Assembly (NCBI RefSeq): GCF_001592745.1 | Contig: NZ_LUKD01000001.1 | Location: 379,384-443,383 of the forward strand | Source: Bdellovibrio bacteriovorus | GTDB taxonomy: Bacteria; Bdellovibrionota; Bdellovibrionia; Bdellovibrionales; Bdellovibrionaceae | Direction: 5' to 3' | DNA: 64,000 nucleotides | Shown here: piece by piece, positions 15,494-21,283 of the stretch | Position numbering within the stretch: the first letter of the stretch is position 1 | How the letters are laid out: the number at the start of each line of letters is the position of its first letter | Translations under genes and position numbers: made by a program | The notes under the pieces: model-generated | What the model was told of the DNA's origin: nothing | The model's database searches: none | What the model saw: the letters and a program-made list of their open reading frames with translations, nothing else

Positions 15494-16243
15494 TTATTTT
15501 ACTGCGTAAATCAGGCTTCCGCCTTTAATGTATCCAATGACGTTTTTCAAGTTTTGCATAGAAACTGCAGGGCATCCCCAGCTTCTTCCTTGCTTCACGT
15601 TCGTGTCTTGAACATAGTTCGCTCCATGGATGACAACGGCGCGAGAGCGAGCTTTCGAGTTCGTTGATGACAATCCATCAAGGCGAAGCGAAAGTCCGTG
15701 ACCACCTTGATAAGTTTCAGCCGTGCGGTAGTAACCTAAAGAGCTGGCATGCGCACCTGATGTATTGCTAAACTTTTCCGCATATCCATCGTGGTTTGCA
15801 TCTGAACCTTTACCGTGTGCCACACGAATAGCCCACACGGCTCCCGTCTTCATGGAAATGATATAGAAACGAGGCTCTGAAGAGTGCTTGGCGAAATCAA
15901 TCACGGATACGTAATCCTGATTTCTGAAATTGTTTTTGTTAGCGTCGAAGTAAACCAAAGCCTTTGCGAGTGCATCCGTACGAACCATACGCGTCGGATC
16001 TACGTAATTGTATTTTTGAAGAATGCCTTCACGTTGAGAGTCAGAAAGGCTTTCTGAAGCATCGCGAGGGATTGTGGCATTTGCGCCTGGATTATCGACG
16101 ATTTGTTCCTCTGTAGTGTCATCTGGCAGACTGGCTGTATCACTGCCGCCATTTCCCGCACAAGCCGCTAGGGATAATAAAGAACTTACCAATAGTGTTG
16201 CTGTGAAACGAGAAAAGAACGATTTGTTAACAGTCACTTGCAT
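15494..16243 (-). CDS. lipoprotein murein L,D-transpeptidase (YkuD_2 type)
   Basis: The N terminus is a lipoprotein signal with lipobox SLAAC (Cys28). After a Ser/Asp/Glu-rich linker, the catalytic domain (about 100-249) ends with VIHGANYVQ and GRSWGCPAVSM, which place catalytic His206 and Cys224. This is the L,D-transpeptidase catalytic variant of the DUF/YkuD_2 group, acting on peptidoglycan stem peptides in the periplasm. VAHGKGSDANHDGYAEKFSN is a conserved segment of the group. A paralogue with an extra C-terminal domain lies at 49550-50926. GGAGG precedes the ATG, and a strong terminator follows the stop. Confidence 0.87.
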   Translation of the reverse strand: MQVTVNKSFFSRFTATLLVSSLLSLAACAGNGGSDTASLPDDTTEEQIVDNPGANATIPRDASESLSDSQREGILQKYNYVDPTRMVRTDALAKALVYFDANKNNFRNQDYVSVIDFAKHSSEPRFYIISMKTGAVWAIRVAHGKGSDANHDGYAEKFSNTSGAHASSLGYYRTAETYQGGHGLSLRLDGLSSTNSKARSRAVVIHGANYVQDTNVKQGRSWGCPAVSMQNLKNVIGYIKGGSLIYAVK

Positions 16244-16603: not shown

Positions 16604-17827
16604 ATGAAAACCGTCATGACATTTTTATCCGTTCTGTCTTTGTCATTACCTGCTGTGGCGGAGCCGTCAGCCGCGGGTGCTGCGACAGCGGCGGTTGAAC
16701 CTTTGACACCCGATGAATTGATCGCTGTCGGCCTTGAAGAAGTACCGGTCAACTTAAAAGCCATCATTAAAAAAATTGACGCTCTTCCCGCCGCGGTCTC
16801 CGCTATGGATCCAGGCGCTCAACTGGTCATCCCGGAACTGCCTTCCTTTAAAAAAGGTTTTCAAGCTTATGAAGCCAATCGCAAAACCTGCATCAATGAC
16901 CAAACCCGTGCCGCAAAACTATGTCGCGAAGAAACTTCTCCGAACTTGCAAACAACTTTGCAAGGTGTGAACTTGGTTCTAGCAGGCGTAAACAGTTTGG
17001 CCGTCAACGACGCCTGTAAGTCGTTTTCAAAAGCAATGACCTTGGCTCAGGCCGGAATCACGGCTTACACCGTCGCCTGCGGGGCCATGCAGAAGAAATG
17101 TGATTTATCGTGTTCAGCAGCTGCGAGTGGAATGAAAGAAATGATCCAGGCCCTGCACGTTTCAAAAGCCACCTGCACACCAGGGCAGACCGGCGCAGGG
17201 TGCACGGAAGGAATGAGCCAGTTAGAATCACTGTATAACAAAGCTTACACAGAGATGAAAAAAGAGATCAGTCTCCAAAGCAAAAAAACTCTGCACTCAA
17301 AAGAGCAGCTTTGTAAAAAGACTTACGGTCTTCTTTTGGCTTCTTCCGCAGCGTCCTTGGTATCCATTGTATCATCGTTAAAGCAGGGTAAATCCTGTGA
17401 TGAAGAATCAAACGGAAGCGAAGGTGGTGGTGGCGGAACCGCGGCTGTCGCGCTCAGTGAAAAGCAGGAAACAACATCGTCCCAAACTGCGACGCCTTCA
17501 CAATCTTCAGCAACACCGACCCGTGCAACGGAAGTTGCCCCAAGCCTCTCGTCCTCTCCAACTAGCTCCGCAGCGTCGGAATCAGCGAATAGAACGTCTG
17601 ATACGGTGGCCATCGAGGCACCCAACTCTCGTCGCGAACTAGCTTCTTCTCCTACTGAGACTGTCCCAAGTCAGGATTCAGAATTAAGAAAGTATTTACC
17701 GGGAGGAAGCAAAGCGGCCGCTTCCGTATCCGCAGACCCGCACCCAGACATCACCAGTGCAGGCGGGAAATCAAACTTTGAGAAAATGCGAAATCGGTTT
17801 TGGGAGTTGGGACTGCAGGGCGATTAA
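16604..17827 (+). CDS. secreted cysteine-rich protein of unknown function
   Basis: A 407-residue protein with a signal peptide (cleavage after AVA, near residue 19). The first half of the mature protein is helical with about ten cysteines in pairs (KTCIND, AAKLCREE, VNDACKS, TVACGAMQKKCDLSC, KATCTPG, GAGCTEG), which suggests disulfides in the periplasm or outside. From about residue 270 it turns into a Ser/Thr/Ala-rich low-complexity region after a Gly run, then ends with a short charged tail. I recognise no family. GGGGA precedes the ATG. It converges with the membrane-anchored protein at 17830-18540, with only two bases between stops. Confidence 0.75.
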   Translation: MKTVMTFLSVLSLSLPAVAEPSAAGAATAAVEPLTPDELIAVGLEEVPVNLKAIIKKIDALPAAVSAMDPGAQLVIPELPSFKKGFQAYEANRKTCINDQTRAAKLCREETSPNLQTTLQGVNLVLAGVNSLAVNDACKSFSKAMTLAQAGITAYTVACGAMQKKCDLSCSAAASGMKEMIQALHVSKATCTPGQTGAGCTEGMSQLESLYNKAYTEMKKEISLQSKKTLHSKEQLCKKTYGLLLASSAASLVSIVSSLKQGKSCDEESNGSEGGGGGTAAVALSEKQETTSSQTATPSQSSATPTRATEVAPSLSSSPTSSAASESANRTSDTVAIEAPNSRRELASSPTETVPSQDSELRKYLPGGSKAAASVSADPHPDITSAGGKSNFEKMRNRFWELGLQGD

Positions 17828-17829
17828 AA

Positions 17830-18540
17830 CTATTTGCGAAGTTCCAAAGAAGATTCAGCAAGATTGTTTTCCTGCTGGTATCTGACGTTTTCCCAGATCT
17901 TTTTACTGACCGGACCTGGCAACAATCTTTCAATCTCGGATTTCTTCTGAGGTTGCAAGGCGGACCACTGATAAAGCACTTCCGCTTTCACTTCTCCTAA
18001 AGATTTACGAGCTTCCAGACTGTTTGATTTATCTTCGATATATCCATTGCTCACGACATCTTTTAAAACCCCTAAAGCTTCCCCATTCGGAGCGTCTTGC
18101 AGCGACTCTAAAAGAAGGTCTAAAGCCACGTTTTGCAAGATCACCTCATCGACGGTCAACGCGGGGGCTTGCAAAAGCTCACTGAGTGATGAAATCACCC
18201 GGTGGTTCTTTAGCAATTCCTGTCGCTCTTTTTTTTCTGTTTCATCCAAGAAAACTTTCCGATGCATGCGATGAAATGCACTGAGCTCTTTTTTGTAGGC
18301 GTAGTCTTTCCACACGGGAGCACTTTCACCCTTGCGGGCCTCAGGAACCTCCGATGTGGGATTTTGCACTATCGCCGTCGGACCGTCTGACGCCGGAGAC
18401 GCTGGCGCCTCGGGAGAATGTTGCTCGACGCTGGGCTTTTCGTTAGGGCTGTCGTTTTTAACAGAAAGAGAAGTCATGACTAGCATGACTCCTCCGACTG
18501 CAACCGCCCCCACCGCTATGGCTAGCTGTTTTTTATTCAT
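17830..18540 (-). CDS. single-pass membrane protein of unknown function, partner of the Hint lipoprotein
   Basis: The 236-residue protein has an N-terminal membrane anchor (residues 5-27), a Pro/Ser/Glu-rich linker to about 75, and a helical charged C-terminal domain likely to lie in the periplasm. No family is recognised. The stop of the upstream lipoprotein gene and this ATG are separated by one base (TAA-G-ATG), which argues for translational coupling and for a shared role with that Hint-domain lipoprotein. The sequence shows no catalytic motif. Confidence 0.7.
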   Translation of the reverse strand: MNKKQLAIAVGAVAVGGVMLVMTSLSVKNDSPNEKPSVEQHSPEAPASPASDGPTAIVQNPTSEVPEARKGESAPVWKDYAYKKELSAFHRMHRKVFLDETEKKERQELLKNHRVISSLSELLQAPALTVDEVILQNVALDLLLESLQDAPNGEALGVLKDVVSNGYIEDKSNSLEARKSLGEVKAEVLYQWSALQPQKKSEIERLLPGPVSKKIWENVRYQQENNLAESSLELRK

Positions 18541-18541
18541 C

Positions 18542-21283
18542 TTAGAATGCTCCGCGAGTGAGAGTTTTTCTGAACAAGGATCTATTCAACTCTTTCGCAC
18601 CGTCATTTTGGAAGTAAGCCGAACCATTCAAGTATCCATTTAGCACAAGGATATTGTGATGGATCGCTGTTGACTGTACGAAGATGTTATAGACTTTACC
18701 TGTGTATTTCATTGGTGTGATTGATACGATCTCATCCAAGACACCACCTAATTGCACCAGGTCCTCGCCCACTTTGAAGTCTTTCGCTGACTGCATGAAG
18801 CCATTCGAAGCTACAAGTGGATGGTTTGGAGTTACTTTAATTGAGCGGCCCGATTTCATACGCATCAACAAGATGTCGTGTTCCGTATCAAGAAGCTCTG
18901 TCACCCACTGATCCACTTTCGTTTTTTGGATAGCTTTACTTCCCATGCTTTGAGCACTTTGCAATGAAGCTACGAAGGCATAATTCTTCGTCAAGGCTTC
19001 AATGAATGGAACGTACTTCATATCCGTGTTACCTGCTTCTTGGGCAAGAATCAGCTGTTCAGGTGTGGCACATGAAGACACACACACTGTCGCTACGTAC
19101 ACCGTAGATGGCATAGTACATGCCGCATTTTTCGAAGTTGGTGCAATCCATGGTTTTTCTGGGTTGTAAGCACGATCCATGAATGTTGGATACAAGTGCT
19201 GACCGCTAGAATTCAGAGCCACAGATGTCTTACCTGATTTCACTTTCACGTCATCGAACTGAGCCAGGAATTCTTTAATGATTGGCAATTGATCCTGACA
19301 TTTCACCATCCACTCATAACGACCTTGCGCTTGAGAATTGCTTAAGCTGTCTTGCGAACAACGTCTTGCGACGTAGTCACGGCAGTAACTTTCAGCCACC
19401 CAAGGACCATATTGAGTCTCTGTACCTTCCAACTGAACTTTGTGGTCGATACAAGCGTAAGTGCTGACTTTCGTCACATCACGCTTATTCACGATCACAC
19501 CGATCTGATTTGCTGGACATGTTTGTGAGCTGTTAGCTTCTTCAACCGAAGTTGAAGATTCCTGTCTGCGTACAGCTTCTGGGTTGCCGTCACAAACTCT
19601 TTCTTCCACTGGCATAGCTTGACCGGCACAACGTTCGTTACCTACTTGTGTTCCTTTGTCATCAACACACACGAAGATACGTGACTGTTTACCACCACAG
19701 TCCGCAGTACAAGCTGTGAAGTTTTCTGTCGGAACGTATTTATATGTAGGACATGCACCTGGAGTTTTAATAGAACCCTGGTGAGTATTTGAACTTACGA
19801 TTTGACCGTCTTTACAAGTTTGATCTGACACTTCTGTGAAGATATCAAAGAAACCTGTTTCACCGAAAGCACAAGTCAATGGAACTTTCACCTCACCAGT
19901 CACAACATCTGTTTTTACCGTGCCATGGGAACCGAAGTCACCACAACCATTGTGACAAGAGTTTTGGTTGAAAGTATCTGATCCGGAAAGAACTCCGTTA
20001 TTACAAACTCTTTCTTGAGACACGCTCGCGCAAGAACCTGCAGGAGTGCTAGTCGAGTACAATACTTTAGATCCACCATGAGGAAGAACACTTCCATCTG
20101 GCAATCTGCAAGATTGGCCTTCACAAGAACCTTCATTAGTGACTTCTTTTGAGCGAGAGATTTCTACCCAGCTCAATTTTTCACCACTCAACTGACACTG
20201 TTCTTTGATCACGTCACGGTAAGAAATTTCTTTCGTCCCGTTTAATCCGCAGGCCACCGTCTCTGAATAGATGTCACCTTGAGATTCGCGGATTTGATCT
20301 TTCACCTGACATGAACCAGGAACTTCTGGTTCTGGTGTGGGTTCTGGTTCAGGATCTACAGTTCCTTTAGTCACTGTGATGGAATGCTTCAAGTTGAAAA
20401 GAACTTGGTTTGTGTCGCCTTTTAATAAAACGGCGCTCACTTCAAAAGTACCTTCAGCCGCATAAGTATGCTGAACGTTTTGACCTGAAGCACTTCCACC
20501 ATCACCGAAGGCCCAACGGATTGCACCGACTTGATCCGCCAAACATTGCGGCATATATAAAGACAAGCTGACTGGGGAACCGACTTTGGCTTCAGAAGGA
20601 CCTGAAATCGCCGCCGCTGCCGTACAAACCACCTGATCTTCTTCTTCAGAAATCACGATGGTTTGCGAAAGCATTTTTTCACCACCCGGATTGCCGACAA
20701 CCAACACTTTCACCGTGTAAGTACCAGGTTGAGCGTAAGTATGTTGGATGGCGTCCATAGAACTCACAGAAGGAGTTCCGTCACCAAATGTCCAATAGGC
20801 ATCTAGTAAAGTCATATTCTCAGGAATACCAACATCAAATGTCACCGGTTGACCGGCTACACCTACGGTAGGAGCGATCATCACAGGTTCACTGGCGACA
20901 ACCACTGTTTTAAAAGAGACTTCTTGAGACGTCGTACCGCTCACGTCTTGAACTGACGCCGTCATCACGTAAGTACCGGCCTTTTTATAGACCGATGTTA
21001 CGCTGGTCGCCGTTCTTGATGAACCCCCTGCAGCTTTCCACACAACTTCTTGTGCACTATCGCAGGACAACTGCTCGTTGAGCTTGTATTGGATCGCTTC
21101 GTTGGTCTGGCCTACCGACTCACCTTCGATTTTAAGGTTGGCCGTGCTGACCTTTTGCGAACCCGGTTTGCAGGTCAGCGTGGAACTAGATAGATCCATC
21201 ACTTCGCTGCTCTCTTGAGCCTTCTGACACCCCACCGACAGTAACAACAATCCTGTTGCAACTAAACGCATCCCTCTGTTCAT
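18542..21283 (-). CDS. PKD/TSP1-like lipoprotein with C-terminal Hint domain
   Basis: A 913-residue surface-type lipoprotein with lipobox LSVGC (Cys19). Three PKD-like domains follow (about 45-125, 130-210 and 220-300), the last two with FGDG and HTYA. A Pro/Glu spacer and a cysteine-rich region (about 325-735) come next, including a thrombospondin type-1-like piece (FTACTADCGGKQSRIFVC). The C terminus from Cys738 is a Hint domain: SSCATPEQLIL matches intein block A, SIKVTPNHPLV matches block B (Thr818, His821), and KVYNIFVQS with HHNILVLNG matches blocks F and G. Hint domains self-cleave or splice through an N-terminal Cys. The usual terminal His-Asn is replaced, so cleavage is likelier than splicing. 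Confidence 0.8.
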   Translation of the reverse strand: MNRGMRLVATGLLLLSVGCQKAQESSEVMDLSSSTLTCKPGSQKVSTANLKIEGESVGQTNEAIQYKLNEQLSCDSAQEVVWKAAGGSSRTATSVTSVYKKAGTYVMTASVQDVSGTTSQEVSFKTVVVASEPVMIAPTVGVAGQPVTFDVGIPENMTLLDAYWTFGDGTPSVSSMDAIQHTYAQPGTYTVKVLVVGNPGGEKMLSQTIVISEEEDQVVCTAAAAISGPSEAKVGSPVSLSLYMPQCLADQVGAIRWAFGDGGSASGQNVQHTYAAEGTFEVSAVLLKGDTNQVLFNLKHSITVTKGTVDPEPEPTPEPEVPGSCQVKDQIRESQGDIYSETVACGLNGTKEISYRDVIKEQCQLSGEKLSWVEISRSKEVTNEGSCEGQSCRLPDGSVLPHGGSKVLYSTSTPAGSCASVSQERVCNNGVLSGSDTFNQNSCHNGCGDFGSHGTVKTDVVTGEVKVPLTCAFGETGFFDIFTEVSDQTCKDGQIVSSNTHQGSIKTPGACPTYKYVPTENFTACTADCGGKQSRIFVCVDDKGTQVGNERCAGQAMPVEERVCDGNPEAVRRQESSTSVEEANSSQTCPANQIGVIVNKRDVTKVSTYACIDHKVQLEGTETQYGPWVAESYCRDYVARRCSQDSLSNSQAQGRYEWMVKCQDQLPIIKEFLAQFDDVKVKSGKTSVALNSSGQHLYPTFMDRAYNPEKPWIAPTSKNAACTMPSTVYVATVCVSSCATPEQLILAQEAGNTDMKYVPFIEALTKNYAFVASLQSAQSMGSKAIQKTKVDQWVTELLDTEHDILLMRMKSGRSIKVTPNHPLVASNGFMQSAKDFKVGEDLVQLGGVLDEIVSITPMKYTGKVYNIFVQSTAIHHNILVLNGYLNGSAYFQNDGAKELNRSLFRKTLTRGAF

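Follow-up and report, generated by a model that had tools for sequence, protein, structure and literature searches.

The window (the whole 64,000-nucleotide stretch of DNA that was analysed) carries on its reverse strand a gene for a 913-aa lipoprotein that ends in a predicted Hint domain, followed one base later by a gene for a 236-aa protein, here called the partner (Table 1). Both had been picked out in a preliminary description from the sequence. Its account of the larger protein as a lipoprotein with PKD and thrombospondin-like parts is borne out by a lipobox with Cys19 and by Pfam matches above cut-off, at E 2.5e-28 for PKD. Its account of the next gene as a single-pass membrane protein separated by a one-base gap agrees with the gene ends (18540/18542) and with the one predicted N-terminal transmembrane helix. 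Orthologues of the Hint lipoprotein were present in 14 of 24 genomes of the genus, the window's own included.

Table 1. Positions in the window of the Hint lipoprotein gene, its parts and the partner gene
Feature	Position	Strand	Basis
Hint lipoprotein gene, 913 aa, C-type BIL, Bd2400 orthologue by sequence	18542..21283	-	ORF, orthologues, Bd2400 primers
Predicted lipoprotein signal peptide and lipobox LLSVGC19, lipidated Cys19 (residues 1-19)	21227..21283	-	sequence MNRGMRLVATGLLLLSVGC
PKD repeats (about residues 138-306)	20366..20872	-	Pfam PKD, three stretches; ColH PKD matches
Thrombospondin type 1-like domain (residues 520-565)	19589..19726	-	Pfam PF19030 (TSP1_ADAMTS) E 1.2e-5, above cut-off
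Secreted four-cysteine domain (residues 636-737; C642, C662, C722, C734)	19073..19378	-	49/49 relatives; stand-alone copies
Cys738, putative Hint nucleophile, predicted cleavage point	19070..19072	-	Cys in 48/49; aligned with intein residue 1 / hedgehog Cys258
Hint fold (residues 738-888)	18620..19072	-	AlphaFold model and fold search, Pfam/PDB profiles
Block B TPNH (Thr818, His821)	18821..18832	-	T/S 49/49, His 49/49
Conserved ~25-residue tail after the Hint	18545..18619	-	alignment, 49-member census
Partner gene, 236 aa: TM helix (residues 3-23), disordered linker, helical domain (about 75-236)	17830..18540	-	co-occurrence, synteny, fusion, AlphaFold

The Hint domain and the four-cysteine domain ahead of it

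Searched as a single full-length sequence, the 913-aa protein matched the Pfam families Intein_splicing (E 0.001) and PT-HINT (E 0.024), both below cut-off, and the Intein_splicing match improved to 6.7e-5 when residues 624-913 were searched alone. Intein_splicing was matched by 23 of 24 relatives, and a family profile compared with solved structures found inteins (5.6e-6) and the Clostridium BIL domain 2lwy (4.3e-5). We also examined an AlphaFold model (mean pLDDT 71.7, with the Hint part mostly at about 65-93), an output that gives no active-site or disulfide geometry. A fold search with this model returned inteins (best Z 18.0 over about 138 residues), the C. thermocellum BIL domain 2lwy (Z 16.8) and the hedgehog autoprocessing domain 1at0 (Z 15.9), with Cys738 (model residue 115) superposing on intein residue 1 and hedgehog Cys258. 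Family profiles, matches to PDB profiles and the predicted structure thus agree on the Hint fold from Cys738 that the preliminary description had proposed, and on this evidence the C-terminal ~175 residues are an intein/hedgehog-type Hint domain starting at that cysteine.

Relatives were drawn from 369 genomes of the phylum, and the 49 members with the upstream domain were aligned. In this alignment of highly divergent relatives, the position of Cys738 is Cys in 48/49, and the block B positions Thr/Ser818 and His821 are kept in 49/49 each, so that the nucleophile and the block B residues hold across the family. Asn866 is likewise present in all 49, Gly887 is also invariant, and the residue before Cys738 is Ser or Gly in 48/49. 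Forty-seven of the 49 have no cysteine after Cys738. In the fusion protein L113, two post-nucleophile cysteines fall beyond the Hint, within the partner-like part, while the single extra cysteine of L095 accompanies loss of the nucleophile. L095, where Gly takes the place of the nucleophile, also carries a low-complexity insertion of ~78 residues (a PGQH repeat) in its Hint.

At the far end of the domain, the penultimate-His and terminal-Asn positions of inteins correspond to Gly887 and Ser888, followed by Ala889, and the C-terminal His-Asn plus Cys/Ser/Thr of splicing inteins is not present. Position 888 is Asn in 0/49 relatives, with Ser, Thr, Asp or Ala there instead. Because Asn never occupies the intein terminal position, splicing to a C-terminal extein is unlikely, as had already been argued from the missing His-Asn. 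In the short tail that follows, Gln892 and Asn900 are nearly invariant across the 49-member census.

The conserved unit extends ~100 residues ahead of Cys738, beyond the Hint alone, and contains C642, C662, C722 and C734 in 49/49. The N-termini ahead of this four-cysteine/Hint unit vary: Bdellovibrio has lipoproteins of 900-1000 residues (the long form), and elsewhere there are secreted forms of ~300 residues (the short form). The four-cysteine domain, which had no convincing PDB relative by sequence, also occurs without a Hint: G002 has three such genes in a row (L128) and G023 has two (L104), and one copy each lies in G276 (L121), G308 (L129) and G348 (L126). The tandem genes are small and secreted, with the four-cysteine domain only and proline-rich tails. 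Most of the stand-alone copies keep the four cysteines without the fifth, the equivalent of Cys738; the exceptions are L126, which lacks the fourth cysteine, and L129, which stops at the domain end. Because most copies keep the four without the nucleophile, the simplest reading is that the four cysteines are part of a cargo domain and that Cys738 is left free, and we infer two disulfides in the cargo domain and a free Hint nucleophile. We also considered a redox trap in which Cys734 pairs with Cys738, and rejected it as the default, as most stand-alone copies have the Cys734 equivalent without Cys738.

The downstream partner gene

The partner was found in 47 of the 52 Hint-positive genomes and in 0 of the 317 Hint-negative genomes (Fisher p 3e-54, a test that ignores shared ancestry; neighbouring genes can also disappear together). 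These counts, from 369 genomes, used E <= 1e-30 for the Hint protein (52 genomes) and E <= 1e-20 for the partner (47 genomes). Among the five Hint genomes without a strong partner match, G202 and G203 carry fusions, G046 has a partner at the locus (L087), G091 has a weak partner match, and in G163 the locus lies on a short contig. In the fusions, the helical part of the partner follows directly after the Hint on the same chain (L113, independent E 6e-9; L114, 1e-3).

Long-form Hint genes, a plasmid copy included, have a partner relative directly downstream. Most short-form operons place ahead of the partner a lipoprotein gene (~630 residues) whose product has a subtilase-type (Peptidase_S8) domain. 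The gene for this subtilase-like lipoprotein separates the short Hint gene from that of the partner in L085, L086, L087, L111 and L118; its catalytic regions look degenerate in some, as does the catalytic Ser region in L118. We discarded the possibility that this gene encodes the N-terminal half of the long form, split off as a separate protein, since the two have no similarity.

The partner was modelled alone, and its helical domain was predicted with a pLDDT of about 98. The partner had no convincing match among Pfam families or solved structures, and its fold had no Foldseek match at E <= 0.001. The best VIA match (Z 8.5) was to HEAT/designed helical repeats and lies within the range of a common arrangement. 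One residue, Lys185, is conserved in over 90% of partners, with Arg in some. Judged from genome sequences, the partner is an obligate component of the Hint system, and it is probably co-transcribed with the Hint lipoprotein gene. We found no description of a Hint-associated, membrane-anchored helical partner, and the accessible texts on Bd2400 and C-type BILs do not contain the partner gene, the Hint-partner fusion, the subtilase-like lipoprotein or the stand-alone domains.

Relation to Bd2400 and to other Hint proteins

Primers for qPCR of Bd2400 of B. bacteriovorus have been published (PMC11271337). They match the Hint DNA of an orthologue in a sister genome (L012) exactly, with a spacing of about 121 bp, and the forward primer covers the codons for ATPEQQI, immediately after the nucleophile. 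From this exact, correctly spaced match, we identify the 913-aa gene, by sequence and synteny, as a direct orthologue of Bd2400 in another species, with about 55% identity to the single-contig genomes of the genus that bear the primer site. We take Bd2400 to be the protein of Dori-Bachash et al. 2009, going by the title of that paper and the citation given with the primers. C-type BILs with a "putative predator-specific domain 1" (PPS-1) are described in Bdellovibrio in the part of PMC9185962 that cites that work (PMID 19153786), and the four-cysteine domain is probably this PPS-1. The Hint protein therefore belongs to an already-described predator family (Bd2400, C-type BIL).

The Hint domain shares its fold (Z 16.8), its block A Cys, its block B His and a secreted or surface-located host protein with A- and B-type BILs such as 2lwy. 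Unlike those, it lacks the C-terminal His-Asn and always stands C-terminal, behind the four-cysteine domain. The preliminary description had taken hedgehog as the model for this layout, and the hedgehog Hog domain (1at0) is indeed alike in fold (Z 15.9), in having a secreted cargo before a C-terminal Hint, in lacking a C-terminal Asn and in having Ser or Gly ahead of the nucleophile. As nearest kin, however, hedgehog is not supported: the domain is of the bacterial intein-like kind, and Bd2400, its orthologue, has been published as C-type. No sterol or adduct recognition region follows the Hint, only ~25 residues in place of the sterol-recognition region of hedgehog, and no sterol acceptor is known here. 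The family profile gave no meaningful alignment with an approximate query sequence of vertebrate Hog from which to place the catalytic Asp (D46 of Hog), which serves to activate the acceptor. Burglin 2008 (PMC2362128) described certain secreted bacterial Hint proteins (MXAN_6253, plu1731 and others) as a group that has conserved cysteines upstream. Compared by description only, that group is alike in being secreted, with a C-terminal Hint and upstream cysteines, but two upstream cysteines are reported there versus four here.

The phylum has a further subfamily of secreted Hint proteins whose cysteine pattern differs, ITAP..RC....WC.CGCFHPDT (L123, L124, L097, L098, L099, L125), and in L097 a partner-like gene lies two bases downstream.

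Predicted self-cleavage and alternative readings

From the sequences and the structural model, we consider it likely that the 913-aa protein is an envelope lipoprotein whose C-type Hint cleaves itself at Cys738, with the partner assisting or directing the reaction. After export, disulfides would form in the four-cysteine domain (C642, C662, C722, C734), and Cys738, as the sole unpaired cysteine, would attack the preceding peptide bond in an N-S acyl shift aided by Thr818 and His821. Water or an external nucleophile would then resolve the thioester, leaving a lipid-anchored fragment of ~77 kDa (computed mass) that ends in the four-cysteine domain and releasing a Hint fragment computed at ~19.5 kDa. 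Most likely, the partner would dock on the Hint or its tail, timing or directing the reaction. Against self-cleavage stands L095, a natural relative in which Gly replaces the nucleophile. That loss, together with the missing terminal Asn, would also fit a Hint that has lost its activity and serves as a structural or binding module, a reading we regard as quite improbable, as Cys738 and His821 are near-invariant and other cysteines nearly excluded throughout the phylum. Delivery of a polymorphic toxin, with a PT-HINT-type Hint freeing a C-terminal toxin and the neighbouring gene encoding its immunity protein, would accommodate the weak PT-HINT match and the small size of that gene. Nevertheless, no toxin domain was found C-terminal to the Hint, where there is only a short conserved tail, the partner is on the same chain in two species, and neither part is polymorphic, both being conserved, all of which makes this reading exceedingly improbable.

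The fate of the thioester admits another outcome. In a hedgehog-type ligation, it would be passed to a lipid, glycan or amine, so that the four-cysteine end became covalently joined to another envelope component, with the partner presenting or being the acceptor. The Hint resembles that of hedgehog in having neither a C-terminal Asn nor a +1 nucleophile, and the obligate, membrane-anchored partner, with Lys185 kept in over 90%, is fused in two species where hedgehog has its adduct-recognition region. However, most members have only ~25 residues after the Hint, no acceptor is known, and the hedgehog catalytic Asp could not be placed with the approximate Hog query. Lys185 need not be the acceptor either, because it is Arg in some partners. 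We hold ligation to be unlikely. A more specific and rather doubtful version is a protein-conjugation system, in which the Hint would turn the C-terminus of the secreted four-cysteine domain into an activated thioester. The acceptor would come from the partner, which is in some cases part of the same chain and in others accompanied by the subtilase-like lipoprotein, and the domain would end up covalently bound to a component of the envelope, either ahead of prey contact or while it takes place.

BIL domains are not known to work with a second protein. Here a second gene, strictly linked to the Hint gene across a phylum and fused to it in two species, points to a bacterial Hint reaction that another protein may assist or direct. 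The Hint family has been described before, and the obligate partner is what merits further attention; through it, the cellular role of BIL domains becomes open to experiment in B. bacteriovorus HD100, a laboratory predator, with Bd2400 and its following gene.

Viral contigs gave one weak Hint match, and plasmids gave one match, from Bdellovibrio: plasmid pBdHAGR2 of Bdellovibrio sp. HAGR004 (L127; AP029178.1, 26808-43602) carries the full Hint-lipoprotein and partner pair, all annotated as hypothetical. Within the window, two further genes lie near the pair. One, at 15494-16243 (-), encodes a lipoprotein that by eye resembles a murein L,D-transpeptidase; the other, at 16604-17827 (+) and convergent to the partner gene, encodes a 407-aa secreted protein found elsewhere only at the locus of the closest relative (L066).
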